From Nitrosomonas sp. (GTDB lineage Bacteria > Pseudomonadota > Gammaproteobacteria > Burkholderiales > Nitrosomonadaceae), in NCBI GenBank assembly GCA_017879645.1, contig JAAEXZ010000016.1, positions 1 to 37,802 of the forward strand: a stretch of 37,802 bases of DNA, given 5' to 3'. Below are positions 16,351 to 37,802 of this stretch, in pieces; positions within the stretch are counted from its first letter, which is position 1; each line of letters begins with the position of its first letter. The position numbers and the translations under genes were made by a program. A model generated the notes under the pieces. It did not search any database and was not told the DNA's origin. It saw nothing but the letters and a program-made list of their open reading frames with translations.

Positions 16351-17034
16351 TCACTTCCTCCGGGCAACGATTACCCCATCACGAACCGGATTGATGAATA
16401 CGTCAAAATCCGGATCGTTGAAAATCATCTGATTGTGTCGAACAATTGCTTCGGTCGAAACCATTACTGGATTATGAACATCCTGCAAGGCTACGCGCCC
16501 GGACCAGAGCACATTGTCAGCAATATACAGTCCACCGGGACGAATACGATCCCTCGCCATTTGCCAGATCTCCGGATAGTCACTTTTGTCGACATCGTTA
16601 TAACAGATATCAAATAGGCCCTCTGTTTGCAAAAACACATCCTGGGCCATGCCGGTACAAAATTCAATACGATCCCATAACCCTGCATCAGTGAGATACT
16701 GCCGCGCACGTTCCCGATTGGCAGCATCGCCATCACTGCAAACGACACGCCCTTCCGGCCCCACGGCCCGAGCGAACCAATAGGCTGAATAACCATAGCC
16801 ACTACCAAATTCGAACACCCGCCTAGCACCAATCATGCGAGCTTGCGTCTCGAGAAAAACTCCAACCAGTCGATTTACAATCGGAAACTCTCTCTGTCTG
16901 GCAAATTCTTCCATAGCCAGCAAAACCGCAGTATCCGTATGCGCGATCAGATCGCGCATGTAGGCTTCCATCTCAGGATGAACAATGTGCCATTCTGTTG
17001 CACCATCACCCTGCAAAAACCGGGAATCGTTCAC
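16351..17034 (-). CDS. O-methyltransferase (class I SAM-dependent, PF01596-like)
   Basis: A 227-residue Rossmann-fold methyltransferase of the CCoAOMT/COMT type. The SAM motif I is VFEFGSGYGYSAYWFARAVG (about residues 73-92), and VVCSDGD and GLFDICYNDVDKSDYPE supply the acidic residues that bind SAM and the divalent metal. RPGGLYIADNVLWSGRV is the characteristic later motif. Substrates are usually catechol-like or phenolic. I use the GTG start at 17034 because GGAGG lies 4 nt upstream; a later ATG at residue 22 lacks this. It is the last gene of the minus-strand polysaccharide cluster, but nothing in its sequence ties it to sugars. Confidence 0.87.
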   Translation of the reverse strand: MNDSRFLQGDGATEWHIVHPEMEAYMRDLIAHTDTAVLLAMEEFARQREFPIVNRLVGVFLETQARMIGARRVFEFGSGYGYSAYWFARAVGPEGRVVCSDGDAANRERARQYLTDAGLWDRIEFCTGMAQDVFLQTEGLFDICYNDVDKSDYPEIWQMARDRIRPGGLYIADNVLWSGRVALQDVHNPVMVSTEAIVRHNQMIFNDPDFDVFINPVRDGVIVARRK

Positions 17035-17065
17035 ACAACCTCCAGATTGGCAATTATTGACGCAC

Positions 17066-18025
17066 TCATTTTATCGCCATGACAACACATTCCTCACCGC
17101 AATGCTTGTCACGCAAATAAACCAGACCTGCCGTGAGCTGGAACCGGAATCCGCGCAACACATCACGCACGGTAATCGGCTGATTGGTGGCACGACGACG
17201 CCCACTGTTTTCTGCAATTGCAAAAGCACTTACCATTGTTGTCCAGTGCTTGTACTGACTGAAACTGGCCTGACGCACCAAGTGTTGCAATGTATTGCCA
17301 TTGAAAAGATGCAGATGCCTCGGCGGCTCCAGTCCTCTCCATGCCGAACCAAATCTGCGGTGTCCCAGGCTTGCCACATTCGGTGTCAATACGATCAAGC
17401 GTCCTCCTGGCTTGAGCAATGTGTAGCACGTCTGCAATAGCGCCGATGGATCATGAACATGTTCGATGACATGACTCAACAGCACCACATCAAAACGATC
17501 CTGTGCATCCAGTGTCTCAAGTTCCCCAAGATGCACCGGAATAGCTTTTGATGCCTGCACATGCGCAGCGGCAACGGCATCGATCTCCTGCCCCATCACA
17601 TCCCATCCCAACGCCCGCAGGCGCTCCAGACGCTTGCCATTACCGCACCCCACCTCGAGCAGGTTTCCGGGAGAACATTGATCCAGATACATCTGCTTGT
17701 ACTGCCTGCGTTCATGATGCAATCCCAGAAGACGCACTGCCAAACCCTGCAACAGCGGACGCAAAGCATTGGCCCATACAGTTCTCTGAACCTGACTGGA
17801 ATCATGCGTGTAATAACTGTGATAAGCCTTGCCGATGGTCGCCCGGGTTGGTCTGGGATCCAGCCAGATCAACCCGCATTGATCGTTGGCACATTGCTTG
17901 AACGTCCATGTGCCGGGCACGCCAAAAAGACGATCCGAACAATCCTGATGAAGCGTTCTCCCTGAACTCCCGCATAGGTAGCAATCCAATCGATTCTCGG
18001 TGACTATTCCATATTGCGGATCCAT
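17066..18025 (-). CDS. Class I SAM-dependent methyltransferase with N-terminal zinc-ribbon-like segment
   Basis: A 319-residue protein. The N-terminus has two Cys clusters (CYLCG near residues 15-19, then CANDQCG near 45-51) that look like a zinc ribbon. The methyltransferase domain has motif I LLEVGCGNGKRLERLRALGW, then LSHVIEHVHDP and LLKPGGRLIVLTPN. This architecture is common in methyltransferases of O-antigen, capsule and glycan clusters. It lies 6 bp after the O-antigen ligase-like gene and 31 bp before the O-methyltransferase gene. Sugar methylation is inferred from context only. Confidence 0.85.
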   Translation of the reverse strand: MDPQYGIVTENRLDCYLCGSSGRTLHQDCSDRLFGVPGTWTFKQCANDQCGLIWLDPRPTRATIGKAYHSYYTHDSSQVQRTVWANALRPLLQGLAVRLLGLHHERRQYKQMYLDQCSPGNLLEVGCGNGKRLERLRALGWDVMGQEIDAVAAAHVQASKAIPVHLGELETLDAQDRFDVVLLSHVIEHVHDPSALLQTCYTLLKPGGRLIVLTPNVASLGHRRFGSAWRGLEPPRHLHLFNGNTLQHLVRQASFSQYKHWTTMVSAFAIAENSGRRRATNQPITVRDVLRGFRFQLTAGLVYLRDKHCGEECVVMAIK

Positions 18026-18031
18026 GTCCGG

Positions 18032-19246
18032 TCATCCCGCCTTGTGGTGATTCTGTTGATTCAATGGCTGCCAATGCAAGGCTATGGCAGTAATCATGAG
18101 CAGCAGAAGTGGTGCTTTACTGAAAACCAGGAAAGTATCGGTCAAGCCTGCTATAAAAATATAACACAACATCCCTGCTGCGAAAATTTGCAATTGCCTG
18201 CGTCGCAGGGATTGATACCAGGCCCAATATAAAAACCCCAGACAGGACATACCCAGTATACCGGTATGCATACCTATCTCGATCCAGTCATTATGAAAGT
18301 GCGATGTCTCCTGAAAATTGGGCAATTCTCTATAGATGCCACCCTTATAGGTTTGAATGGTCCGATCGAAGTATACCTGCGCCATGCCAGTGCCATACCC
18401 CAGTAAAGGACGCTCGGCAATACCATGCAAACCGACATCCCACATCGCTAGCCGGTAACCCATGCTGGAACTGAAATTGCCCTGCTGCAATAACGCAATA
18501 TCCTGCTTGATGAGCATAAACCGCTCTTTGAAAACGGGGCTGCTGTAGGCAAAAACCACAGCAGCAACCAGCACGGACACAACCATCGCAATCAGCTTCC
18601 GGGTATCCAGAGAATGACGCAGTAACGCCATCAATAACAAGGCCGCGAGTGTTGCCAGCAGCAATACCCTGCCCCCCTGATGAAACTGAATGAACAGCAA
18701 CGCCCCCGCAAGTAACCACAGCATCCCTCTCGCCCAGGCTACCCGGACAGTACAAGCCATGCCAATCGATACCACGACACCCGCACCCAGTATGGCCGAA
18801 AAACTCAGATACGACATCCCCAGTGCCGGTATGCCTTGCACATCCAACGCTTGCCATTGATAGATCCCCAGCCCCAGCACTGCCCCGTAACTAGCAAGCA
18901 AACTACCCAGCACCCAAGGTAGGCGCGCCGGATTGAGTAGCGAATAAAACGGAATGAACAGCAACAGAAAAAAATATTTCAACCATTTTATCCGTCCCTG
19001 CAGAGAATACTCACTCCAGCTCAGCCCGACCAGCAATACGATGCAAAGCAACAAAATAGCCTGCGCCAAAGGCTCCCTGAGCACCTGTTTGAAACGATCG
19101 ATACCGCCATCCAGCACCCAGGCCAGTACTAGCAGAGAAAAAGCGATGACCTGCAATCCACCTCGCCAGAAAGCAAAGCACATAAAAATCAGCGCAAACC
19201 GGATCAGCGCCTCGCGCCATTTGTAATCCGCATGCATTACAAGCAT
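18032..19246 (-). CDS. O-antigen ligase / polymerase-like membrane protein (Wzy_C)
   Basis: A 404-residue integral membrane protein with about ten predicted transmembrane segments and a large periplasmic loop near residues 240-330. The loop contains LAMWDVGLHGIAERPLLGYGTGM and ETSHFHNDWIEIGMHTGILG, the hallmark of the Wzy_C (O-antigen ligase/polymerase) family; the His in SHFHND is the conserved catalytic candidate. The enzyme would join polysaccharide from undecaprenyl-PP to lipid A core or another acceptor on the periplasmic face. Ligase (WaaL) and polymerase (Wzy) functions cannot be separated from sequence. It lies between a GT2 gene and a methyltransferase gene. Confidence 0.88.
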   Translation of the reverse strand: MLVMHADYKWREALIRFALIFMCFAFWRGGLQVIAFSLLVLAWVLDGGIDRFKQVLREPLAQAILLLCIVLLVGLSWSEYSLQGRIKWLKYFFLLLFIPFYSLLNPARLPWVLGSLLASYGAVLGLGIYQWQALDVQGIPALGMSYLSFSAILGAGVVVSIGMACTVRVAWARGMLWLLAGALLFIQFHQGGRVLLLATLAALLLMALLRHSLDTRKLIAMVVSVLVAAVVFAYSSPVFKERFMLIKQDIALLQQGNFSSSMGYRLAMWDVGLHGIAERPLLGYGTGMAQVYFDRTIQTYKGGIYRELPNFQETSHFHNDWIEIGMHTGILGMSCLGFLYWAWYQSLRRRQLQIFAAGMLCYIFIAGLTDTFLVFSKAPLLLLMITAIALHWQPLNQQNHHKAG

Positions 19247-19301
19247 TGGAGCTGTTGCCAGAGAATATGCACCATACTTCTACCTTTCCTCAGGATATTT
19301 T

Positions 19302-20351
19302 CTACTCCGGCTTCCACACCTGCCATTCCAATCGTCGCAGATGTGCCAGGATAGACAGTATGCCCGATAGCCTTGTCGACATACCTGGCACAACCCAGAC
19401 AGTCGTAATACGCTTGTCTTTCCGGGTCCAGCCGCGTAACAGCAGGCGAACAATCATTCTAAAACTCAATCGACTGTTGCGCATTTGCAAACAGGGCAAC
19501 TGCACTGCGGTACCGGGTGTCAGCCAGTGTACACCCCCACCCTGCTGAAGCACGGTGTCGATTGCCTGCATCAATGATACAGGTAAATCCTCGAGCACCA
19601 GACAACTGGAAACCAGCAACACATTTCGCTGTACTTCGGGATAGCGTGACAAATACAGGGAACGGTTACGTTGCGTAAGCTGACGATAGGATTTGCCGCG
19701 TCCGAACGAGGCACCACCATGGTGCCGAATATGGGCATCCGGATGCACACCCACGCGCCAACCCTGCGAAATCAATCGGCGCCCCAGATCAGTATCCTCG
19801 AAATAACCACGCCCAAATGCCGAATCGAACCCGCCCAATGATAAAAACAGGTCCCGGCGAATCAGGAAACCATACCCCTGAAACCGGCAGGTAGCAATAT
19901 AGCCCCCCGGGAATCGCTGATAACGCTCCAGTTTGTACCGAAAAAAATGATCATGCACAGGGCTGATCACAGCCAGTTCCGGGTCAGCAGTCAGTGCAGC
20001 ACATAGAAGTGGCAGAAAATTGTCAGCGATTTCGGTATCGGAATTGAGCACCAACACCAAGGTTGCCTTACTCCGGGATACAGCTTCGTTCACTGACTTG
20101 CCGTACCCCTGATTCTGGGGTGCATGATGCACCTGTAATTGCGGATAGGACAATGCATCCAGCATCCCGCATGTAACCGCATCGGAAGCATCATCCTGAA
20201 CATACAGATTCCCGATTACAGCACCGAGATGCGTGATAACCGAAGCAATACAACGTTGCGTCAATTCGGGAGAGTTATAGACCGGGATAACGACATCGAC
20301 AGTGAATCCGGCACAATCAGTCATGGCGCAGTCGTTCCGGTTTGAAGGCAT
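19302..20351 (-). CDS. Glycosyltransferase family 2 (rhamnosyltransferase-like)
   Basis: A 349-residue GT-A fold transferase. The nucleotide-sugar site begins VDVVIPVYNSPELTQRCIAS. The DxD-type motif is LNSDTEIADNFLPLL, and the acceptor region GGFDSAFGRGYFEDTDLGRRL contains the catalytic ED. This combination resembles dTDP-rhamnosyl and related GT2 enzymes. The last 100 residues (after RSLYLSRYPEV) are not typical of the family and may bind the acceptor. The first nine residues precede a second ATG (MTDCAG) that could be the true start. It is part of the minus-strand surface-polysaccharide cluster, 55 bp upstream of the ligase gene. Confidence 0.88.
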   Translation of the reverse strand: MPSNRNDCAMTDCAGFTVDVVIPVYNSPELTQRCIASVITHLGAVIGNLYVQDDASDAVTCGMLDALSYPQLQVHHAPQNQGYGKSVNEAVSRSKATLVLVLNSDTEIADNFLPLLCAALTADPELAVISPVHDHFFRYKLERYQRFPGGYIATCRFQGYGFLIRRDLFLSLGGFDSAFGRGYFEDTDLGRRLISQGWRVGVHPDAHIRHHGGASFGRGKSYRQLTQRNRSLYLSRYPEVQRNVLLVSSCLVLEDLPVSLMQAIDTVLQQGGGVHWLTPGTAVQLPCLQMRNSRLSFRMIVRLLLRGWTRKDKRITTVWVVPGMSTRLSGILSILAHLRRLEWQVWKPE

Positions 20352-20434: not shown

Positions 20435-21199
20435 CTAGGCACGACCGAATATCAGATAGGCTTCGCCCCAGTTTCGGGTTGATCGCTGCTTGACTTCCAA
20501 TCCTGCCTGCTGCATCAGGTCAATCGCTTTCTGCTGCTCCTCGGCTGTACCCAGTTCAACGATGACCGACCGTAATGCAGGATGGGCCAGTACAGTCGAT
20601 GCACCTTCAAGGATCGAAATTTCAATGCCATCGACATCGATCTTGATGTAATTCGGGTAGGGAAATCCCCATTTGCTGCATAAATCATCCAGTGTCACGC
20701 CAAACATCCCCTGGATATGTGTCGTCGAAATTTTCATATTACCGATGTCTTCATGACCGAACTGTGAACGGTTTCCCCCCGGAATGAACTTGGGAATGTA
20801 CAGCTTGGAAAACTCGCTCCGGCCCGACACCGCGACACAATAAGACAGGATATTTTGTGCCAGGTTGTTGATATAAATATTTTTGTTCAGCGCGTAATAG
20901 TTATTGCTTTGGGGTTCAAAGGCAAACACACGGATTCTTTCACCGAATTTTTTTGCCGGATACAGCGAGTATTGCCCGATATTCGCCCCGATATCGAAAT
21001 AACACGAATCCGGTTCGAAGCTATCCAGCCAGTCCAGCGTATCCGGCTCCTTGATGCCATAAGTCCTGGCGCGGTTCAGCGTGCGCAGATGATCAACGGA
21101 AATCAGGATACGTTGCCCCCTGACCATGATATCCGCATACCCGCCTTTTAGCTTGTAGGCAGTCACCACCAGTTCGTTCAAGAGATTTTTTAATGACAT
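20435..21199 (-). CDS. FkbM family methyltransferase
   Basis: A 254-residue SAM-dependent methyltransferase of the FkbM type, which methylates hydroxyls on sugars or polyketides. Motif I is CYFDIGANIGQYSLYPAKKFG; VFAFEPQSNNYYALNKN and NYIKIDVDGIEISILEGA are the other FkbM landmarks. I start at the ATG 21197-21199 (MSLKNLLNEL), with AGGA 5 nt upstream. Starts further upstream (21238, 21250, 21253) would read through a hairpin terminator at 21215-21242, so they are unlikely. The gene needs either read-through of that terminator or its own promoter. It probably methylates a residue of the polysaccharide made by the neighbouring genes. Confidence 0.88.
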   Translation of the reverse strand: MSLKNLLNELVVTAYKLKGGYADIMVRGQRILISVDHLRTLNRARTYGIKEPDTLDWLDSFEPDSCYFDIGANIGQYSLYPAKKFGERIRVFAFEPQSNNYYALNKNIYINNLAQNILSYCVAVSGRSEFSKLYIPKFIPGGNRSQFGHEDIGNMKISTTHIQGMFGVTLDDLCSKWGFPYPNYIKIDVDGIEISILEGASTVLAHPALRSVIVELGTAEEQQKAIDLMQQAGLEVKQRSTRNWGEAYLIFGRA

Positions 21200-21214
21200 G
21201 TCAATCCTGGGGAT

Positions 21215-21242
21215 AAAAAATGAGCCTGGATCCAGGCTCATT
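21215..21242 (-). terminator. Strong hairpin terminator inside the polysaccharide cluster
   Basis: A perfect 24-bp palindrome at 21219-21242 (10-bp arms AATGAGCCTG and CAGGCTCATT around a GATC loop) is followed on the minus strand by six T (21220 to 21215). It begins 8 bp after the stop codon (21250-21252) of the upstream gene. It therefore ends or attenuates transcription before the FkbM gene. Confidence 0.88.
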
Positions 21243-21249
21243 GGTAACA

Positions 21250-22515
21250 TCAACGAATGGCTTGTTCAAGCAATCCGACGTAACGCGACAAAACATGGGC
21301 ATCGGGAAAATCCAGCATCTCGCGAATGAAGCGTTGCCGATGTTCTTCAACATAAAAATCGTCACACCCCTGTGCCAGAAAATGATTGATTTTCTCGTAC
21401 ACATCATCCCGGCAGCGCAGCTCCGTCTCGGGCATATAAAAAGCCACGGCAGACCGGGCGGCAATGAGATAGTCGGCCGCCAGAACCGGCTTCTTGGCCC
21501 GCACGGCTTCAAACACCACCGATGTCGCCAGATCGATGATGACATCCGACCAGTTCATCAGGTGAACCGAATGCGCGTCATCGCTGGCCACGCTTACATT
21601 GGGCAATTGCTTGATTGCGCTATCCTTCGTCAGGGACTGTTTCCAGCCGCTGCGGGTATGCGGTTTGATGATCAGTTCCACATCGGGAAATCCGGCAATC
21701 ATGTGCACGACTTCGCTGACCTCTTCCCAGAACGTCGTAAAATTGGCCTTGCGCAAAAACATGACTATTTTCAGTCGACTATTCGAGCGCACCAGCGGAG
21801 AAGGCGGCATCAAACCGGCCAGGATTTTCAGCCATTCTTCGCAATATCGGGGAGAACCCAGCACGGCCAGCTTGCTGTCATCCAGAAAAGGACGGAACCG
21901 TGTGGCGCACATCTCGTTGGGAACCACCAGCCGGTCGAATATCTTTGCTGCCGAAAAGGTCACATCCGGCTCCACGCGTCTCTCGCCCCGGCGGATCAAC
22001 TGGCTGGCATGCGGGCTATCGCCATGCGGCAGGGACACGGTACCCAATCCACGATTCTTGGCCATCTCCACCACCACCTCTACCCATTCGACGCAAATGA
22101 CCGAATTTCGCTCGATCCAGTCAAACGCCACGACACCTTTGCCAGAATCGCCAAAACACCGGTTCAAGAGCGATTCGGCAGTATCCCGCCACAATGGCAT
22201 GCGTTGGCTTTCGTCGAAGCGATCGGCCAGTTTTTCTGCCAGATGACCGAGGATGGGAATGCGTCGCACATTGCGCGTCAGCATCAGCATCTGCAAGCGC
22301 CACTTCACATACTTGACCCAAGAAAACAACTCGCAGACATGCGCCACACGGACACCACTCAAATGGCTCAGATACTGGACGCGAAAATCCCGACGGAATT
22401 GAGTCGAGCCGATCAGCACGACATCACACTGGTGACCGGATTCAATCCATTTATATACAACCGGAGTGACATGATCGATGTCGTTATAGTGGCGCAGAAA
22501 GAAAAGTGCTTTCAT
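21250..22515 (-). CDS. GT-B-like surface polysaccharide transferase (CDP-glycerol glycerophosphotransferase-like), uncertain
   Basis: A 421-residue protein starting MKALFFLRHYNDIDHVTPVVYKW. No single motif fixes the family, but the layout resembles CDP-glycerol glycerophosphotransferases and capsule transferases. A first Rossmann-like half is followed by LGTVSLPHGDSPH (PHG motif, near residues 180-192), then LAVLGSPRYCEEWL, ELIIKPHTRSGW, NVSVASDDAHSVHLMNWSDVIIDLATSVVFEA and KKPVLAADYLI. In GT-B enzymes the KPH and DxxSSxxxEA-type segments bind the nucleotide donor. It is the first gene of the minus-strand cluster, divergent from the cytidylyltransferase operon. A CMP- or CDP-linked donor is therefore attractive but unproven. 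Confidence 0.68.
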   Translation of the reverse strand: MKALFFLRHYNDIDHVTPVVYKWIESGHQCDVVLIGSTQFRRDFRVQYLSHLSGVRVAHVCELFSWVKYVKWRLQMLMLTRNVRRIPILGHLAEKLADRFDESQRMPLWRDTAESLLNRCFGDSGKGVVAFDWIERNSVICVEWVEVVVEMAKNRGLGTVSLPHGDSPHASQLIRRGERRVEPDVTFSAAKIFDRLVVPNEMCATRFRPFLDDSKLAVLGSPRYCEEWLKILAGLMPPSPLVRSNSRLKIVMFLRKANFTTFWEEVSEVVHMIAGFPDVELIIKPHTRSGWKQSLTKDSAIKQLPNVSVASDDAHSVHLMNWSDVIIDLATSVVFEAVRAKKPVLAADYLIAARSAVAFYMPETELRCRDDVYEKINHFLAQGCDDFYVEEHRQRFIREMLDFPDAHVLSRYVGLLEQAIR

Positions 22516-22844: not shown

Positions 22845-23594
22845 ATGAAAACCATTGCTGTCATACCTGCCCGTATGGGATCAACACGATTCCCGGGCAA
22901 ACCGATCGCCCAGATTCTGGGACGCCCGATGATTGAACACATCTATAAGCGCGTAGCCATGAGCAAATCCTTGCACGCCACCTACATTGCCACCTGTGAC
23001 GAAGCCATCCGCGAAGTCGCGGAAGGATTTGGCGCGCCGGTCATCATGACATCCGATATTCATCAGCGCGCCAGCGACCGGGTTGCCGAGGCCGTTGTAT
23101 ACCTGGATGCCGATCTGATCGTCATGGTGCAGGGAGACGAACCGATGACGCATCCTGACATGATCGATGCCGCTGTTGCGCCTTTCAAAACCGATCCCAA
23201 GCTGGGGTGCGTCAATCTGGTACGCAAGATCGACCAGGAAGCGGATTATCTCGATCCCAACACCATCAAAGTCGTCATGAACCAGAATCTCGATGCGCTG
23301 TACATGTCACGTCGCCCAATCCCGACACTGGCCAAAACCGGGTTTGCCGATACGGCGGTGTACAAACAGGTATGCATCATTCCGTTTCGGCGCAGCACCC
23401 TGTTTGAATATACCAAGTTGCCGCCGACACCGCTGGAACAACTGGAATCGATTGACATGCTGCGCTTGCTCGAACATGGCCTGCAGGTCAAGATGGTGCC
23501 CACCGAATACAATACCCAGGCCGTGGATACCGAAGCCGATCTGCAACGGGTTGCCGAGCTGATGAAAACCGACCCACTGATTTCCCGCTATTAG
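22845..23594 (+). CDS. Divergent KdsB-family cytidylyltransferase (CMP-sugar-acid synthetase)
   Basis: A 249-residue enzyme of the 3-deoxy-manno-octulosonate cytidylyltransferase family, which uses CTP to make CMP-activated 2-keto-3-deoxy sugar acids. Conserved parts: IPARMGSTRFPGKPI (residues 7-21, CTP loop), VQGDEP with Mg-binding Asp98, YMSRRPIP (153-160) and VDTEADL with Asp228. It departs from the KdsB consensus: the usual HxSGTDR is HQRASDR (73-79), the QGDEPLIP region is QGDEPMTH, and GIDT(x)xDL is AVDTEADL. These positions line the sugar site, so the substrate may not be Kdo itself. It is the first gene of a six-gene operon. No ribosome site is obvious. Confidence 0.83.
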   Translation: MKTIAVIPARMGSTRFPGKPIAQILGRPMIEHIYKRVAMSKSLHATYIATCDEAIREVAEGFGAPVIMTSDIHQRASDRVAEAVVYLDADLIVMVQGDEPMTHPDMIDAAVAPFKTDPKLGCVNLVRKIDQEADYLDPNTIKVVMNQNLDALYMSRRPIPTLAKTGFADTAVYKQVCIIPFRRSTLFEYTKLPPTPLEQLESIDMLRLLEHGLQVKMVPTEYNTQAVDTEADLQRVAELMKTDPLISRY

Positions 23595-23602
23595 GAACCA
23601 CT

Positions 23603-24373
23603 ATGTCACTCAAATCGCGGTTGAACCGTTCCGAATTGACCATAGGCTCATGGATTACGCTGGGTCACCCCGCCATCGCCGAAATCATGGCAGCCGCCGG
23701 CTTTGACTGGCTGGTGCTGGACATGGAACACAGCGTGCTGGAGCTGGGTGAAGTTCAGTCGATCATCCAGGTGCTGGATGGCAAGCAATGTCCTGCCATC
23801 GTCCGCCTGACTTCCAATCACCCCGACCAGATCAAGCGTGTCATGGACGCCGGCGCCACCGGCATCATGGTGCCGATGATCAAATCGGCTGCCGATGCCA
23901 GAGCCGCCGTGGATGGCGTGTACTATCCACCACGCGGGCAAAGGGGCGTCGGACTGGCGCGTGCGCAGGGTTACGGCGCGAGCTTCCAGGCCTATCGCCA
24001 ATGGCTGGATGAAAACGCCGTCATCGTGGTCATGATCGAACATGTTCAGGCAGTCGAAGCCATCGACAGCATCCTGGCCACGCCCGGCGTCGATGCCTAC
24101 ATCATCGGCCCCTATGATCTGTCCGGTTCGATGGGACGCCCTGGCGATCTGGACCACCCCGATGTACAGGCTGCCATTGCACGCGTTCTGGAGGCAGGTC
24201 ATCGTGCCGGAAAACCGGGCGGCATCCACGTCATCGAACCCGATCCACAGGCCTTGCAGCAACGCATCCAGGCCGGTTTCAACTTTCTCGGTTACGCTCT
24301 GGACATCCGCATTCTCGACTCAATCTGCCGCAACCATCTGCACAGCATCCGAGCCTCATTGCACACATCATGA
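23603..24373 (+). CDS. HpcH/HpaI family class II aldolase
   Basis: A 256-residue TIM-barrel aldolase of the 4-hydroxy-2-oxo-heptane-1,7-dioate / 2-keto-3-deoxy-L-rhamnonate aldolase family. These enzymes join pyruvate and an aldehyde, or cleave 4-hydroxy-2-oxo acids. The catalytic set appears complete: His43 (MEHS), Arg68 (VRLT), metal ligands Glu146 (MIEH) and Asp172 (GPYDLSGS). It therefore looks active. It lies 8 bp after the cytidylyltransferase gene and overlaps the dehydrogenase gene by 4 bp (ATGA). In this context the anabolic direction, building a 2-keto-3-deoxy acid for CMP activation, is a reasonable inference; the aldehyde is unknown. Confidence 0.92.
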   Translation: MSLKSRLNRSELTIGSWITLGHPAIAEIMAAAGFDWLVLDMEHSVLELGEVQSIIQVLDGKQCPAIVRLTSNHPDQIKRVMDAGATGIMVPMIKSAADARAAVDGVYYPPRGQRGVGLARAQGYGASFQAYRQWLDENAVIVVMIEHVQAVEAIDSILATPGVDAYIIGPYDLSGSMGRPGDLDHPDVQAAIARVLEAGHRAGKPGGIHVIEPDPQALQQRIQAGFNFLGYALDIRILDSICRNHLHSIRASLHTS

Positions 24374-25299
24374 ATACGCTCGTCATTTCCACTTCTTCTT
24401 TCGATACCGACAACAATCCGCCGTTACAGCACCTGCAGAAAAGCGGCATGTCCATTGTCACCAATCCGCATCGGCGCAAACTGGCCGAAGATGAAATCAT
24501 CGCACTGCTCCAGGGAGGTGCCATCGGCCTGATCGCCGGCATCGAGCCGCTGACCAGGCGAGTTTTCGAAGCGGCGCCACAACTCAGGGTGATATCGCGT
24601 TGCGGTGCCGGACTAGACAGTGTCGATCTCGCTGCCGCCAAACAGCATGGCATTACCGTACTGAATACACCGGAAGCGCCGGCACAAGCTGTAGCCGAAC
24701 TGACGCTCGCATACATCCTGACCTTGCTGCGGCAAATCAGTACGATCGATACAGCCGTGCGCAACGGTGAGTGGCCACGCACCCAGGGTCGTCTACTGGC
24801 CGCACAAACTGTCGGCGTTATCGGACTGGGGCACATCGGTCGCCGTGTCGCCCGCCTATGCCAGGCTTTTGAAGCCACTGTGATAGCGCACGATCCGTTT
24901 GTGCAACAGGCTCCGGATGGCATCACACTGATGCCATTACCGCAATTGCTCGCCAGCGCCGATATCGTCACCTTGCATGTACCGTACTCGACTGAACTGC
25001 ATCATCTGTTGGATGCCAAGGCATTCGCTGCGATGAAACCGGAAGCCATCGTCATCAATGCCGCGCGCGGTGGACTGGTCGATGAAGCTGCGCTTGCCAC
25101 GGCCCTGACAACAGACACAATCGCAGCCGCTGCCCTGGATGTCTTCGAACAGGAGCCCTATCATGGTCCGCTCACCGCATGCCACAACACCATTCTGACC
25201 TCGCATATCGGCTCACTGGCCCGGGAATCGCGGCAACGCATGGAAATCGAAGCTGCGGAAAATCTGCTACAGGGTTTGCGTCAAAACGGCCTCATCTAA
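24370..25299 (+). CDS. D-isomer-specific 2-hydroxyacid dehydrogenase (phosphoglycerate dehydrogenase-like)
   Basis: A 309-residue NAD(P)-dependent dehydrogenase without the C-terminal ACT or ASB domains of SerA. The dinucleotide site is VGVIGLGHIGRRVARL (148-163). The catalytic triad is Arg233 (NAARGGLVDE), Glu262 (DVFEQEP) and His279 (TSHIGS), all present. It would interconvert a 2-keto acid and a D-2-hydroxy acid, for example 3-phosphoglycerate / hydroxypyruvate phosphate or a sugar-derived acid. Translational coupling to the aldolase gene (ATGA overlap) implies a shared pathway. The substrate cannot be read from sequence. Confidence 0.91.
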   Translation: MNTLVISTSSFDTDNNPPLQHLQKSGMSIVTNPHRRKLAEDEIIALLQGGAIGLIAGIEPLTRRVFEAAPQLRVISRCGAGLDSVDLAAAKQHGITVLNTPEAPAQAVAELTLAYILTLLRQISTIDTAVRNGEWPRTQGRLLAAQTVGVIGLGHIGRRVARLCQAFEATVIAHDPFVQQAPDGITLMPLPQLLASADIVTLHVPYSTELHHLLDAKAFAAMKPEAIVINAARGGLVDEAALATALTTDTIAAAALDVFEQEPYHGPLTACHNTILTSHIGSLARESRQRMEIEAAENLLQGLRQNGLI

Positions 25300-25312
25300 C
25301 CAGGGATAACGT

Positions 25313-26242
25313 ATGCAAAACGAATCAGTTGTAGTTTTTGGCGCCAGTGGTTTTCTTGGCAGCCATGTTGCCGATGCGCTGTCTGCTGCGGGCTATCGGG
25401 TACGACTGTTCGACCGCAGCCCGTCCCCGTATCTGAAAAGCAATCAGGAAATGGTCATCGGCGACATCATGAATCTCGACCAGGTCATCGATGCCGCAAA
25501 AGACACCACCTACGTTTACAACTTTGCGGCAATCGCCGACATCGACGAAGCCAACGACAAACCGATTCCTACGGCTACCATCAACGTGCTGGGCAATATG
25601 CATGCACTCGAAGCAGCGCGCATTGCCGGCGCACGCCGTTTTGTCTTTGCCAGCAGCGTGTACGTCTACTCCGAATCCGGATCGTTTTACCGCGCCAGCA
25701 AGCAAGCTGCAGAACGCTTCACTGAAACTTACCACGAGCGATACGGACTGAATTACAGTATCCTGCGCTACGGTTCCCTGTACGGCCGCCGTTCCGACAA
25801 ACGCAATGGCATTTACCGCATGCTGCACGAAGCGGTCGCACACCATTCGATAACCTATAAAGGCAGCGGCGAAGCCCTGCGCGAATATATCCATGTGGAG
25901 GATGCCGCCCGCATGAGCGTGCAAATCCTTGCTGCCGAGTTTGCCAACCGGCACCTGATCCTGACCGGTCAGGAAAAAATGCGCATCAGGGATGTCATGC
26001 GCATGATCTCGGAAATTCTGCCTTGGCCCGTCGAATTACATTTCGACGAAGCCAACATGGTGCACCATTACGAAATCACACCGTACGCGTTCCAACCCCG
26101 CATTGGCCGCAAACTGGTGCTGAATGAACATGTCGATCTGGGACAAGGCATACTCGACTGCCTGCGGGAAATTCATCAGGACCTGCATCACGCCGATGAA
26201 AATGATGACGCCACCCCCACCACTTCCGACAATCGCGCCTGA
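25313..26242 (+). CDS. NAD-dependent epimerase/dehydratase (extended SDR)
   Basis: A 309-residue extended short-chain dehydrogenase. The Rossmann motif is VVFGASGFLGSHVAD, with Gly10, Gly13 and Gly16. The catalytic Tyr126 and Lys130 lie in SFYRASKQAAERF, and Ser114/Ser115 in VFASSVYVYS complete the triad region. YSILRYGSLYGRRSDKRNGI and EALREYIHVEDAARM are typical of sugar-nucleotide epimerases and dehydratases. The substrate would usually be a nucleotide sugar. The C-terminus ends with a polar DDATPTTSDNRA tail. It is the fourth gene of the operon, 13 bp after the dehydrogenase gene. Confidence 0.92.
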   Translation: MQNESVVVFGASGFLGSHVADALSAAGYRVRLFDRSPSPYLKSNQEMVIGDIMNLDQVIDAAKDTTYVYNFAAIADIDEANDKPIPTATINVLGNMHALEAARIAGARRFVFASSVYVYSESGSFYRASKQAAERFTETYHERYGLNYSILRYGSLYGRRSDKRNGIYRMLHEAVAHHSITYKGSGEALREYIHVEDAARMSVQILAAEFANRHLILTGQEKMRIRDVMRMISEILPWPVELHFDEANMVHHYEITPYAFQPRIGRKLVLNEHVDLGQGILDCLREIHQDLHHADENDDATPTTSDNRA

Positions 26243-26248
26243 ATCGTC

Positions 26249-26890
26249 ATGAACAAACACGATTGGCAAGCCATCATTTTCGATTTCGACGGTGTTATCG
26301 TCGAATCGGGAAAAATTAAAACCCAGGCCTTTGCGGAACTGTACCGTCCCTATGGCGACGACATCGTTGCCCAAGTCGTGCAATTTCACACCCAGAATGG
26401 CGGTATGTCGCGCTATCACAAATTTCGCCACTTCCAGGAACATTTTTTACACCAGCCACCACTGACCGAAGCGGAAGAAAAACAACTGGACATCCGTTTT
26501 TCCGAACTGGTCGTCGAAGCGGTGATTGCCGCCGAACCAGTACCCGGCGCGATCGAACTGATCCAGCGCCAATCCGGCAAGATTCCGCTTTTTGTTGCCT
26601 CCGGCACACCGGAATCCGAACTCAAGGTCATTGTCGAGCGCCGCGGGCTGACCCCTTATTTCACTAAGGTACGTGGTGCACCGGCACTGAAAAAAACCAT
26701 CATTGCAGAAATCCTCTCGGCGTACAGCCTGGCTCCCGAATCGGTGCTGATGATCGGCGATGCCATGGCCGATTATGAAGGCGCACAAGCCAACCACACT
26801 GCTTTTCTGGGTCGTGTCTTTCCCGGCGATCTCAATCCTTTCCCCGTCGACGTGAAAATCGTCCCCGACCTGCGCGGATTGCTGATCTGA
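26249..26890 (+). CDS. HAD-superfamily sugar phosphatase-like hydrolase
   Basis: A 213-residue HAD hydrolase with a subclass I cap. Motif I is IIFDFDGVIVES (Asp12 nucleophile, Asp14 acid/base), motif II lies in LFVASGTPESEL, motif III includes the Lys of ALKKTI, and motif IV is VLMIGDAMADYEGA. The nearest relatives are phosphoglycolate- and sugar-phosphate phosphatases. It lies 6 bp after the epimerase gene. In the operon it could remove a phosphate from the aldol product or its precursor before CMP activation, as KdsC does for Kdo-8-P, although KdsC itself lacks a cap. The exact substrate is unknown. Confidence 0.9.
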   Translation: MNKHDWQAIIFDFDGVIVESGKIKTQAFAELYRPYGDDIVAQVVQFHTQNGGMSRYHKFRHFQEHFLHQPPLTEAEEKQLDIRFSELVVEAVIAAEPVPGAIELIQRQSGKIPLFVASGTPESELKVIVERRGLTPYFTKVRGAPALKKTIIAEILSAYSLAPESVLMIGDAMADYEGAQANHTAFLGRVFPGDLNPFPVDVKIVPDLRGLLI

Positions 26891-26903
26891 AACGGAGCCT
26901 GCG

Positions 26904-27584
26904 GTGCGCAGACAGGTTTATCCCGATATCCCATCCCTGAGCAACGGCTTTGTCGAGTTTGCCGCATCGACACTGCGCGATGCACTCACCCGAAAACCTC
27001 AGGCCACCCTGGTCGTTCCAGGAGGCAGTACTCCACGCCACTACCTGCCAGCACTGGCGCAATGCTTACTGCCTTGGGATCGCATTACCGTCACCCTGAG
27101 CGATGAACGCTGGGTCGATACCGATGATGCACAATCGAACGAAAATCTGGCGCGACAGCACCTGCTAGCACACCTCCCGGCCAATACCCCATTCGTCGGC
27201 TTAAAAACCGCGCACGACAATCCGTTCGACGCCATCGAAACCCTGCATCAGCGCCTAGATTCCCTTCCACTACCGATCAGTCTGACCGTGCTGGGTCTGG
27301 GAGAAGACGGTCACATTGCCTCGCTGTTTCCCGGTCTGAACCCACAGTCGTTGCCAGCACATCACTGCATCGCCGTGGCACCTCCACTCGCACCGTCACT
27401 ACGCATGAGTCTCTCATTGAACTTGCTGGCAAGCAGCGACCACATTGCATTGGTCGTTACCGGTAACAACAAACGACGGTTGCTCGATCAACTGGATGAA
27501 AAACCAGATACGAACCTGCCCATTTCCTGGCTGGTAAAACTGGCATCGTCGCGGATAATGGTTTTTGAAACAAGCTCTACCTGA
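26904..27584 (+). CDS. pgl: 6-phosphogluconolactonase
   Basis: A 226-residue DevB-type lactonase. The motifs LVVPGGSTPRHYLPAL, VTLSDERWV, TDDAQSNENLARQHLL and VLGLGEDGHIASLFPG are all family signatures. The enzyme hydrolyses 6-phosphogluconolactone to 6-phosphogluconate in the oxidative pentose phosphate pathway. The start is GTG 26904-26906, with GGAG 6 nt upstream. It is the last gene of the operon, 13 bp after the HAD gene. No zwf or gnd is adjacent, so it is either the housekeeping enzyme carried in an unusual operon or one adapted to a related sugar lactone. I see no strong terminator in the 56 bp that follow. Confidence 0.93.
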   Translation: MRRQVYPDIPSLSNGFVEFAASTLRDALTRKPQATLVVPGGSTPRHYLPALAQCLLPWDRITVTLSDERWVDTDDAQSNENLARQHLLAHLPANTPFVGLKTAHDNPFDAIETLHQRLDSLPLPISLTVLGLGEDGHIASLFPGLNPQSLPAHHCIAVAPPLAPSLRMSLSLNLLASSDHIALVVTGNNKRRLLDQLDEKPDTNLPISWLVKLASSRIMVFETSST

Positions 27585-35572: not shown

Positions 35573-37802
35573 CTAAATCACATGAAAATCCCCATTCGTC
35601 AATGCCAAACCGGGGGTAACACCAGCAAACTGCACCGCTTCACCGGCACCATTTCCGTCGGCATCATAAAACACCGCGCCAGTCGTTTTGTTGTACACGA
35701 TGAAATCGTTGGCATCCAACGCCTGTGTACCGGTAACGAATTGGCCTGGAGCAATCGGGCTGGGCAGTGGATTCGTAAAGACTGAAAACACTTTCTTGTC
35801 CAGCTTGATCGTATCGTCCACCACATTGAAATCCGTAATCGTGTCGATATGCCCCGCAACCCTGAACTGAAAATAGTCGACACCACTTCCTCCGGTCAGC
35901 GTGTTGTCGCCATTCCCGCCGTTCAGTACATCATGACCGGCACCACCATCGATGACATTCGCCGCTGCATTACCCGTAATCGAATTGTTCAAGCCATTGC
36001 CGGTTGCATTGATCGCAGCATTACCCGTCAAGGTCAAATTTTCGACATTGTCCGGCAGGACGTAAGAAACACTGCTGTTGACCCTATCGAGCCCTTCATT
36101 GGGCAGTTCAGTCACCACATCGCCCACATTATCGACTGTATAGCCATCATCTCCCAAGCCGCCGGTCAGCGTATCAGCCCCCGCTGCACCATTCAGTACA
36201 TTACTGGCCGCATTACCGATCAATACGTTGCCAAGTGTGTTGCCATTACCATTGATTACTGCGGTGCCCAGCAACTCCAGACTCTCGACATTGTTCGGCA
36301 ATGTATACGTCACCGTGCTTCTGATCTTGTCCGTACCGGCATTCAGCGCTTCGTTCACCGTGTCCGCACTGTTCTCTACCCAATACACATCGTCTCCGCC
36401 ACCACCTTTCAGTACATCCGCACCCGCTGCGCCGTCCAGGATATTGGCAGCGGCATTACCCTGGAGGAGATTGGCCAGATCATTACCTACGCCGTTGATG
36501 GCCAAGGTTCCGGTCAGAAACAGATTCTCGACTTGATTCGGTAACGTGAAACTGACGCTGCTATTGATCCTATCCGCACCCGCATTCGAATCCTCGGTAA
36601 TCGAGTCGCCGGTATTGTCGACAGTATAGATATCATCACCGAATCCTCCCGCCAGACTGTCTGCACCTGCTCCACCATTCAATGTATTGCTGGCGGCATT
36701 ACCGGTAATCATGTTTGCCAGATTATTACCCGTACCATTGATTGCCTGGTTACCCAGTAATATCAGATTCTCGACATTATTCTTCAATGCAAACGTCACA
36801 CTGCTGAGCACCGTATCCGTACCGGCATTCAGCACTTCCGTGACAACATCACCGGCATTATCCACAACGTAGATATCGTCACCTCCAGCCCCTTTCAGCG
36901 TATCGGCCCCAGCACCACCGTCCAGTACATTACCCAGCACATCTCCGCTCAGATTGTCTGCCTGATTGCTGCCGATCAGATTATTGATATTCGACAGGAT
37001 ATCCAGTCCCGCACCCACAGTATTCTGTTGGGTTTTCAGCGCCAATGAAACCGTCACTGCCGCACCGGCATACGCATAGGTCACCGTGTCATTGGATACG
37101 GTACCCACGAGCCCATCGTTACCAGCACTCCCTACCAGAAGTTGCCCAGCATCGAAAACCGTCACAGCCAGCGTCAGCGATTGCAGATTACTCGCACTCA
37201 AGCCTTGCTGATCGGTCGCTGTGACCAGCAATGAAAAAGTACCGCGATCCTCGAAACCGGGAGTTCCTGAAACGACTCCGGTATCGGCATCCACATGCAT
37301 CCAAGACGGAAGCGGGTCGCCATTGGCCAATGAGGCACTGTAGTGAAGTATATCGCCGACATCAGGATCACCAAAGGCTGCCCCCAAGTCATGACTCCAG
37401 TCAGTGCGTCCGATCTGCACGGCCTGATCGACCAAGGGAGCAATCTGTTGCGGAGTATGATTCTCCGGTATGACCGTCAGATTGAAATTGCCGGTAGCCG
37501 GAACGGCTCCATCTTCACCGCCATCCGCCAATGCAAAGCCAAAACCAGCCTGGGTGGTTGCGGAACCATCATGAGCGAAAGTTACCTTGCCATCGAGGAT
37601 GTCTTGCAAGCTGAATGCGCTTGCTGCCAAACCATCGACCCTCACCAGGCCATTCAACTGCGTCTGCACGGTATAGGTCAATCCTGTGACCGTATCGTCG
37701 GGATCCACCGCCGCCAGATCATCTTGCGTGATCAGATAGATTCCGCCCGCATCGACGGTGGCCGTCAGATCACCGGCAATCACAGGTGCATCGTTGACAG
37801 CC
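35573..37802 (-). CDS. Large RTX protein with cadherin-like domains, C-terminal part (5' end outside window)
   Basis: The frame is open from the right edge (…AVNDAPVIAG) to the TGA at 35573-35575 and gives about 742 residues. It begins with a VCBS/CSPG-like cadherin domain (SLQDILDGKVTFAHDGS), followed by a He_PIG/dystroglycan-type domain (WMHVDADTGVVSGTPGFEDRGTF). Hemolysin-type calcium-binding segments follow, with GGAGADTLKGAGGDD-like nonapeptides in four 81-residue repeats. The C-terminus has GGNGDNTLTGGSGVDYFQF and DTITDFNVVDDTIKL, typical of type I secretion substrates. It is probably a secreted or surface adhesin; no catalytic domain is visible here. No type I exporter genes are in the window. 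Confidence 0.92.
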   Translation of the reverse strand, partial: AVNDAPVIAGDLTATVDAGGIYLITQDDLAAVDPDDTVTGLTYTVQTQLNGLVRVDGLAASAFSLQDILDGKVTFAHDGSATTQAGFGFALADGGEDGAVPATGNFNLTVIPENHTPQQIAPLVDQAVQIGRTDWSHDLGAAFGDPDVGDILHYSASLANGDPLPSWMHVDADTGVVSGTPGFEDRGTFSLLVTATDQQGLSASNLQSLTLAVTVFDAGQLLVGSAGNDGLVGTVSNDTVTYAYAGAAVTVSLALKTQQNTVGAGLDILSNINNLIGSNQADNLSGDVLGNVLDGGAGADTLKGAGGDDIYVVDNAGDVVTEVLNAGTDTVLSSVTFALKNNVENLILLGNQAINGTGNNLANMITGNAASNTLNGGAGADSLAGGFGDDIYTVDNTGDSITEDSNAGADRINSSVSFTLPNQVENLFLTGTLAINGVGNDLANLLQGNAAANILDGAAGADVLKGGGGDDVYWVENSADTVNEALNAGTDKIRSTVTYTLPNNVESLELLGTAVINGNGNTLGNVLIGNAASNVLNGAAGADTLTGGLGDDGYTVDNVGDVVTELPNEGLDRVNSSVSYVLPDNVENLTLTGNAAINATGNGLNNSITGNAAANVIDGGAGHDVLNGGNGDNTLTGGSGVDYFQFRVAGHIDTITDFNVVDDTIKLDKKVFSVFTNPLPSPIAPGQFVTGTQALDANDFIVYNKTTGAVFYDADGNGAGEAVQFAGVTPGLALTNGDFHVI
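35948..36919 (-). repeat. Four tandem 243-bp coding repeats (81 residues each) in the RTX gene
   Basis: The calcium-binding turn (G-[GA]-A-G-[AH]-D) recurs at exact 81-residue spacing five times, giving four full units. Each unit holds an RTX nonapeptide pair, a Y-x-V-[DE]-N strand, an NAG-type turn, V-[ET]-[NS]-L and a closing GN-A-[AS]-N-x-[LI] segment. The units are similar but not identical, so they are old repeats. Confidence 0.9.

Follow-up and report, generated by a model that had tools for sequence, protein, structure and literature searches.

A conserved Nitrosomonadaceae operon that may make and activate a 2-keto-3-deoxy sugar acid for a surface glycan

We analyzed a 37,802-nucleotide stretch of a Nitrosomonas draft genome (assembly GCA_017879645.1, contig JAAEXZ010000016.1, positions 1 to 37,802; hereafter the window), which carries six open reading frames (ORFs) in tandem on the plus strand. 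They encode a KdsB-superfamily cytidylyltransferase (CMPT), an HpcH/HpaI-type aldolase (ALD), a D-2-hydroxyacid dehydrogenase (2HADH), an extended SDR protein (SDR), a HAD hydrolase (HAD), and a 6-phosphogluconolactonase family protein (PGL). Judging from sequence, the probable role of this operon, on balance, is to form an acidic 2-keto-3-deoxy sugar other than 3-deoxy-D-manno-octulosonic acid (Kdo) by aldol addition of pyruvate and to activate it for use in a surface glycan. CMP-activated 2-keto-3-deoxy acids are already known as a class; if the proposal is true, it adds an aldolase route to such sugars beside the phosphoenolpyruvate (PEP)-dependent synthases KdsA and NeuB. The window's own genome is a 2.81-Mb assembly with 90.6% completeness. 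The six ORFs and their family assignments are supported by Pfam and NCBIfam models, and the intergenic gaps are 8, −4 (an ATGA overlap), 13, 6, and 13 bases, in agreement with a preliminary description of the window made from its letters alone, which had reported the same ORFs, families, and tight spacing.

Conservation of the gene set within and outside the family

To judge conservation, we fetched 55 other Nitrosomonadaceae loci (L084, a variant locus, was left out), representing four genera; 51 of them have at least 3.4 kb of downstream sequence and could be tested. CMPT, ALD, 2HADH, SDR, and HAD lie in the same order and on one strand in 50 of these 51 loci, and the operon is therefore more than a chance arrangement. 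Rows in these comparisons are not independent, as the family genome set and our wider contig collection overlap (L104 and L084 derive from one genome, as do L110 and L235). The exception, L037, has only CMPT, ALD, and 2HADH, while another locus, L177, has SDR, HAD, and PGL without the first three genes; together they look like an operon split over two sites of one Nitrosomonas chromosome, or like an assembly fault. Median identity to the window is 84% for ALD, 82% for SDR, 79% for CMPT, 70% for HAD, and 69% for 2HADH, compared with 73% for TrmD (26 loci). In the locus from Nitrosomonas sp. GRE_AOB_2, 18 of 19 window query genes were matched at 72 to 98%; TrmD was not seen there. At the level of whole genomes, CMPT of the window type occurs in 121 of 125 family members (not counting a 33% match in one genome, G143), and the four that lack it are 66, 74, 89, and 90% complete.

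Metagenome-assembled genome (MAG) SP263 carries a variant of the module (L084, 4872–16515) with SDR at 49%, CMPT at 48%, a distant aldolase at 27%, and 2HADH at 31% identity, along with a fumarylacetoacetate-hydrolase-like ORF and another HAD gene. With 8% contamination in this MAG, it is uncertain which organism hosts the variant.

An SDR alignment scan of the wider contig collection returned 312 relatives, of which the best 80 were kept; 50 of the 64 loci numbered L120 to L183 carry titles of Nitrosomonas, Nitrosospira, or Nitrosovibrio. We examined 80 loci (79 of the best 80, plus L242), assigning non-family status from sequence titles and gene order. Module CMPT is present in 66 of them, and ALD accompanies it in all 66, including 13 non-family loci. 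The co-conservation of the set and the link between aldolase and cytidylyltransferase, both anticipated in the preliminary description, are supported. Aldolase matches without module CMPT were seen in L110, L114, L172, and L176; in L150 the aldolase lies in two frames and was left as is. Loci from Denitromonas, Gallionella, Rhodocyclaceae, Burkholderiaceae, and an Acidobacteria MAG have the order 2HADH, SDR, usually an FkbM methyltransferase, HAD, ALD, and CMPT, often with methyltransferases in between. Polysaccharide-type genes adjoin the module in those outside loci whose neighbors were typed. SDR occurs with some cytidylyltransferase, of the module type or another, in 24 of 33 non-family loci, a frequency that has no background control, and of the 9 non-family SDR loci without one, 8 are on contigs shorter than 15 kb. 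We also sampled 398 genomes evenly from the phylum, scoring at most five candidates per genome; 10 of them carry SDR (E < 1e-40), including two from the window's genus. The best reading of this distribution is that the module is a core function in Nitrosomonadaceae and an uncommon accessory of polysaccharide loci elsewhere. The gene signature for the proposed aldolase route is seen, by sequence title, in loci of several phyla.

A second type of cytidylyltransferase, a partial match to PF02348, was observed at L165 6737–7486, L179 4872–5636, and L182 6194–6985. It takes the place of module CMPT and the aldolase next to the SDR, close to radical SAM/SPASM genes; a Methanoperedens MAG is among its carriers.

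The place of the sixth gene is less uniform. The PGL protein exceeds the TIGR01198 cutoff (153 bits against 124) and is a putative lactonase with a substrate predicted from its family. In the window's genus it lies after HAD in 38 of 39 judged loci, L037 being the exception; in three other genera, none of the 11 judged loci has it beside the five genes (L086 and L095 end too soon to judge). That absence led us to consider PGL a hitchhiker, an idea we dropped because PGL-family genes are direct neighbors of the module in 7 of the 33 loci outside the family: before 2HADH in L105, L109, L110, L111, L118, and L119, and after ALD in L114 (L105 and L119 are near copies). They lie elsewhere in the locus in L237 and L239, and eight of these nine non-family genes exceed the TIGR01198 cutoff, with that of L105 one bit short. 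The six-gene set put forward in the preliminary description therefore stands as to the recurrence of the PGL family in other taxa and fails at the 11 judged loci of other genera; PGL may belong to the module. In another 7 of the 33 loci (L106, L115, L134, L152, L165, L176, and L243) a PF04199 cyclase homolog stands by the module without PGL, an identity confirmed with Pfam for L134 and L165; examples adjoining the module lie at L106 9281–9955, L134 8652–9314, and L165 13522–14184. A putative fumarylacetoacetate-hydrolase-like gene is near the module in L116, L117, and L084, and 15 of the 33 loci have none of the three. Because one or another of these genes recurs beside the module, a hydrolase or lactonase step is a reasonable guess, and PGL and the PF04199 cyclase may fill the same hydrolase slot.

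Cytidylyltransferase and lipid A genes

By sequence, CMPT is outside housekeeping KdsB and forms a distinct clade with changed sugar-side motifs. It passes two KdsB-type subfamily models, including NF009905 (306 bits, cutoff 255), and falls below both kdsB equivalog cutoffs (142 of 155 and 177 of 281 bits). Among solved structures, its best match is the capsule enzyme KpsU (PDB 1gq9, E = 3.9e-48), followed by other CMP-Kdo synthetases. We compared 122 module rows (56 from the family, 65 from the wider collection, which overlap the family, and L084) with 20 fetched outgroup enzymes (of 22 found) plus KpsU. All 21 KdsB/KpsU rows retain the motifs HxGxY and LEQLR, columns that presumably contact Kdo, and none of the 122 module rows does; the latter read KQ[VI]C[IVLM][IM]PF and [IV][DE]M[LMI]R there; KpsU, for example, has KHVGIYAYR and LEQLR where the window's CMPT has KQVCIIPFR and IDMLR. 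The CTP/metal-site aspartates (in QGDEP and VDT) are present in CMPT, in columns that we equated by alignment with D95 and D219 of the Aquifex enzyme. Passages of PMC3149649 describe those two residues as holding Mg and locate Kdo binding solely in the C-terminal domain of KdsB.

We built a tree from 47 rows, a selection from 143. The 26 module rows split from the 21 KdsB/KpsU rows with support of 100/99 on a branch of 1.91, all 200 bootstrap trees recover this split, and KpsU lies closest to the module clade. One row (L201) has a very long branch, and two (L118 and L191) have an odd makeup. The altered sugar-site motifs that the preliminary description had noticed in a KdsB-family enzyme are thus borne out, and the tree against KdsB and KpsU, part of the comparison it proposed, sets CMPT apart.

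We queried 13 genomes with PF02348. All eight beta- and gammaproteobacterial relatives (L105, L106, L107, L109, L112, L113, L118, and L119) have, in addition to the module gene (149 to 162 bits), a second gene of 194 to 214 bits on another contig, which would be the housekeeping KdsB of organisms that presumably make lipopolysaccharide (LPS). The Geobacteraceae genome of L176 has a PF02348 gene of 189 bits, and module CMPT was not seen in its locus. N. marina has one PF02348 gene, and in N. multiformis Nl7 two weaker ones accompany the module gene. No full-length match of housekeeping strength was found in family genomes among matches to the window's CMPT listed to E of about 1e-4, whereas the same CMPT query recovered such a gene at 32 to 39% identity in 22 of 24 genomes of the same order (one in two pieces). 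A second PF02348 match in the window's own genome was rejected as another KdsB; it is a 461-amino-acid ORF, which we take to be GlmU-like. CMPT is accordingly the sole KdsB-type copy there, yet it lies outside housekeeping KdsB within a co-conserved gene set, so the ground for refutation named in the preliminary description does not apply. The clade split, the replaced motifs, and the separate KdsB-type gene in relatives together rule out that CMPT is a housekeeping KdsB.

Apart from LpxK in the window's genus, the lipid A and Kdo genes that we searched for are missing from the family. LpxC was found in none of the 125 family genomes, the window's own included, and KdsA over cutoff in none; 102 genomes have weaker KdsA matches, which were judged by score and not individually. 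Two such sub-cutoff matches in the window's own genome were rejected, their sequences reading as DAHP-synthase-type ORFs. WaaA was absent from the window's own genome and appeared in 1 of 125, G093 (6% contamination), where we read it as a contaminant because its contig carries LpxK while the genome holds another LpxK elsewhere. The LpxC, KdsA, and WaaA searches were positive in well-known control genomes. LpxK occurs in 82 of the 125 genomes, all within the window's genus (C137:58325–59281 in the window's own genome), and this orphan enzyme may have another substrate. The absence of a KdsA homolog noted in the preliminary description therefore holds, for KdsA over cutoff, in the window's genome and in the family. 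No NeuB-type gene is among the six operon genes, a statement confined to the operon, since no genome-wide search for NeuB or KdsD was made. According to Opiyo et al. 2010 (PMC3087551), N. europaea retains only lpxK of nine genes, and in Nitrosospira multiformis lpxA was the sole gene recognized. Lipid A gene loss, known for N. europaea, is now extended family-wide and tied to the operon.

Proposed pathway and alternatives

In the pathway that we favor, SDR, 2HADH, HAD, and, where present, the lactonase would either provide an aldehyde or an aldehyde acid or complete the product. ALD would add pyruvate, forming the C3-C4 bond of a 4-hydroxy-2-keto-3-deoxy acid; CMPT would join the C2 hydroxyl of this acid to CMP from CTP; and a glycosyltransferase, perhaps the divergently encoded GT-B-like protein described below, would place the sugar in a surface glycan. 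The product may be an ulosonic or ulosaric acid. ALD matches HpcH_HpaI (PF03328, 122 bits) and falls far below the equivalog cutoffs for HpaI (187 of 369 bits), the GarL type (175 of 393 and 174 of 407), and rhamnonate aldolase (142 of 441). It shares with HpaI, GarL, and YfaU the family, DxEH, an Arg, and the metal-binding Glu and Asp, residues whose catalytic roles we assume and which are kept in 56 of 56 family rows, and differs from them in its GPYDLS and GIHV signatures, its link to a cytidylyltransferase, and its equivalog scores. 2HADH matches 2-Hacid_dh (PF02826/PF00389) and has the Arg, Glu, and His that we take to be the catalytic triad of D-2-hydroxyacid dehydrogenases. SDR matches the Epimerase family, with GxxGFLG, Ser, and YxxxK in 15 of 15 rows.

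Several observations weigh against this pathway. Its substrate, its product, and the direction of the aldolase are predictions, and ALD could run in the cleavage direction. The preliminary description credited the aldolase with all catalytic residues, which is right for DxEH, Arg, and the metal ligands and not for the Gln of GarL two residues before the metal-binding Glu; Met replaces it in 56 of 56 family rows, and Gln is kept in at least 3 of 15 outside aldolases, counted among the commonest variants listed. HAD is nearest among solved structures to beta-phosphoglucomutase rather than KdsC, and KdsC is not among the 12 families listed for it. Syntrophomonadaceae (L134) and Actinomycetota (L152) MAGs have no second PF02348 gene scoring above module CMPT. 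SDR and 2HADH occur without ALD or module CMPT, with another cytidylyltransferase type, in L165, L179, L181, and L182, and so may serve another or a broader acid. Finally, a promoter and terminator scan found nothing above chance.

Kdo aldolases exist, and an improbable alternative is that ordinary Kdo is made by a bypass, with a Kdo-aldolase-type enzyme joining pyruvate to D-arabinose and a diverged KdsB activating the product for a capsule or linker. The kinship of CMPT with KpsU fits this idea, and any Kdo in the family would need a bypass, given the lack of KdsA over cutoff. The operon shares with the classical route (KdsD-KdsA-KdsC-KdsB, then WaaA) a KdsB-superfamily enzyme with PARxGSxRxPGKP, QGDEP, and VDT, as well as a HAD protein, but it has an aldolase in place of the PEP-dependent synthase. 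Set against Kdo are the wholesale replacement of the sugar-side motifs, the separate KdsB-type gene in all eight beta- and gammaproteobacterial carriers, and the lack of LpxC and, apart from the apparent contaminant, of WaaA. With the CMP-sialic, legionaminic, and pseudaminic acid pathways (NeuB/NeuA, PseI/PseF) the operon has in common the CMP activation of a 2-keto-3-deoxy acid; against PseF, CMPT scores 40 bits for a cutoff of 206. Within the non-Kdo pathway, we regard as unlikely the special case in which SDR, the lactonase, and 2HADH supply an aldehyde acid and its union with pyruvate gives a dicarboxylic ulosaric acid; a 3-deoxy-heptulosaric acid, such as Dha, would be an example. The aldehydes of HpaI and GarL are acid semialdehydes, ALD scores about equally with the two (187 and 174 bits), a hydroxyacid dehydrogenase is in every five-gene set, and a PGL-family lactonase recurs; on the other side, our literature searches turned up no link between such genes and Dha, and the aldehyde specificity of ALD is a prediction.

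That the operon serves carbon metabolism, as sugar-acid turnover with a lactonase and an incidental cytidylyltransferase, seems very improbable. The families do overlap with catabolic enzymes, and a phosphogluconolactonase comes after the five genes in the window's genus and adjoins the module elsewhere, but the constant pairing of ALD with CMPT (66 of 66 loci) and the polysaccharide-type neighbors of the typed outside loci weigh against this reading. We also give little credence to two pathways in one operon, in which ALD and CMPT would make one CMP-acid while SDR, 2HADH, and HAD make another sugar or a modification; the four loci that pair SDR and 2HADH with another cytidylyltransferase type would suit this arrangement, but the five-gene order is unbroken in 50 of 51 family loci.

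The non-Kdo pathway could be part of a larger change, which we put forward as speculative and rather unlikely as a whole: LPS would have been replaced in Nitrosomonadaceae by a glycolipid or envelope glycan in which the operon product, a new ulosonic or ulosaric acid, is obligatory, with the GT-B-like protein as its transferase and a pathway that came from an accessory polysaccharide module and was fixed when lipid A was lost. A full-text literature search, with most subscription papers outside it, found no description of the gene set or of a family-wide role, and a search for an aldolase-plus-CMP route found nothing. The operon may point to what ammonia oxidizers without lipid A genes carry on their outer surface: nearly universal in the family and predicted to yield one CMP-activated acid, it offers a directly testable entry to the cover of their outer membrane.

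The divergent glycan cluster

The preliminary description had set the operon beside a divergent polysaccharide cluster, and glycan-cluster genes are indeed seen on the opposite strand (Table 1).

Table 1. Features of the operon and the divergent cluster in the window
Feature	Coordinates	Strand	Remarks
CMPT, KdsB-superfamily cytidylyltransferase, distinct clade	22845..23594	+	Motifs KQVCIIPFR, ESIDMLR, RASDRV
ALD, HpcH/HpaI-type aldolase, own subgroup	23603..24373	+	DMEH, VRL, MIEH, GPYDLS, GGIHV
2HADH, D-2-hydroxyacid dehydrogenase, SerA-like	24370..25299	+	Arg (ARGG), Glu (EP), His (SHIG) present
SDR, extended SDR, nucleotide-sugar epimerase type	25313..26242	+	Ser114, Tyr126, Lys130 invariant in 15/15 aligned homologs
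HAD hydrolase, sequence closest to beta-phosphoglucomutase	26249..26890	+	DFDG motif
PGL, 6-phosphogluconolactonase family protein, possible pathway lactonase	26904..27584	+	GTG start; TIGR01198
Conserved 421-amino-acid protein, no Pfam family, candidate transferase, divergent to operon	21250..22515	-	GT-B-like model; in 44/51 family loci
FkbM-type methyltransferase	20435..21253	-	FkbM homologs inside module in other taxa too
Remaining divergent glycan cluster: O-methyltransferase, methyltransferase, Wzy_C protein, family 2 glycosyltransferase	16351..20351	-	

The 421-amino-acid protein is the candidate transferase. Its predicted structure, modeled from 25 sequences, is of moderate confidence (mean pLDDT of 70), and the 50 Foldseek rows listed include GT-B proteins at 8 to 13% identity, headed by UDP-GlcNAc 2-epimerases; a bacterial polysialyltransferase with CDP ranks 18th. 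The model supports no more than a GT-B fold, and the fold match does not identify the donor. A sequence search of the PDB gave no match at E up to 1, and a PHROGs comparison of the GT-B-like proteins was uninformative. Some Nitrosomonas loci have two copies of this protein and one subgroup has no copy by the operon, which weakens its tie to the pathway. In the locus L107, the protein after CMPT matches TIGR04326 (surface carbohydrate protein O_ant_LIC13510; 550 bits, cutoff 250), and homologs at 30 to 46% identity follow CMPT in L105, L106, L108, L109, L113, L118, and L119. No TIGR04326 protein was seen in the window, which has the divergent GT-B-like protein.

The Wzy_C (O-antigen ligase/polymerase) protein, at 18032–19246 of the window, occurs in a lineage without LpxC and may serve as a polymerase or in protein glycosylation. 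Elsewhere in the window, the minus strand encodes an RTX-repeat and Ig-like protein (35573–37783).

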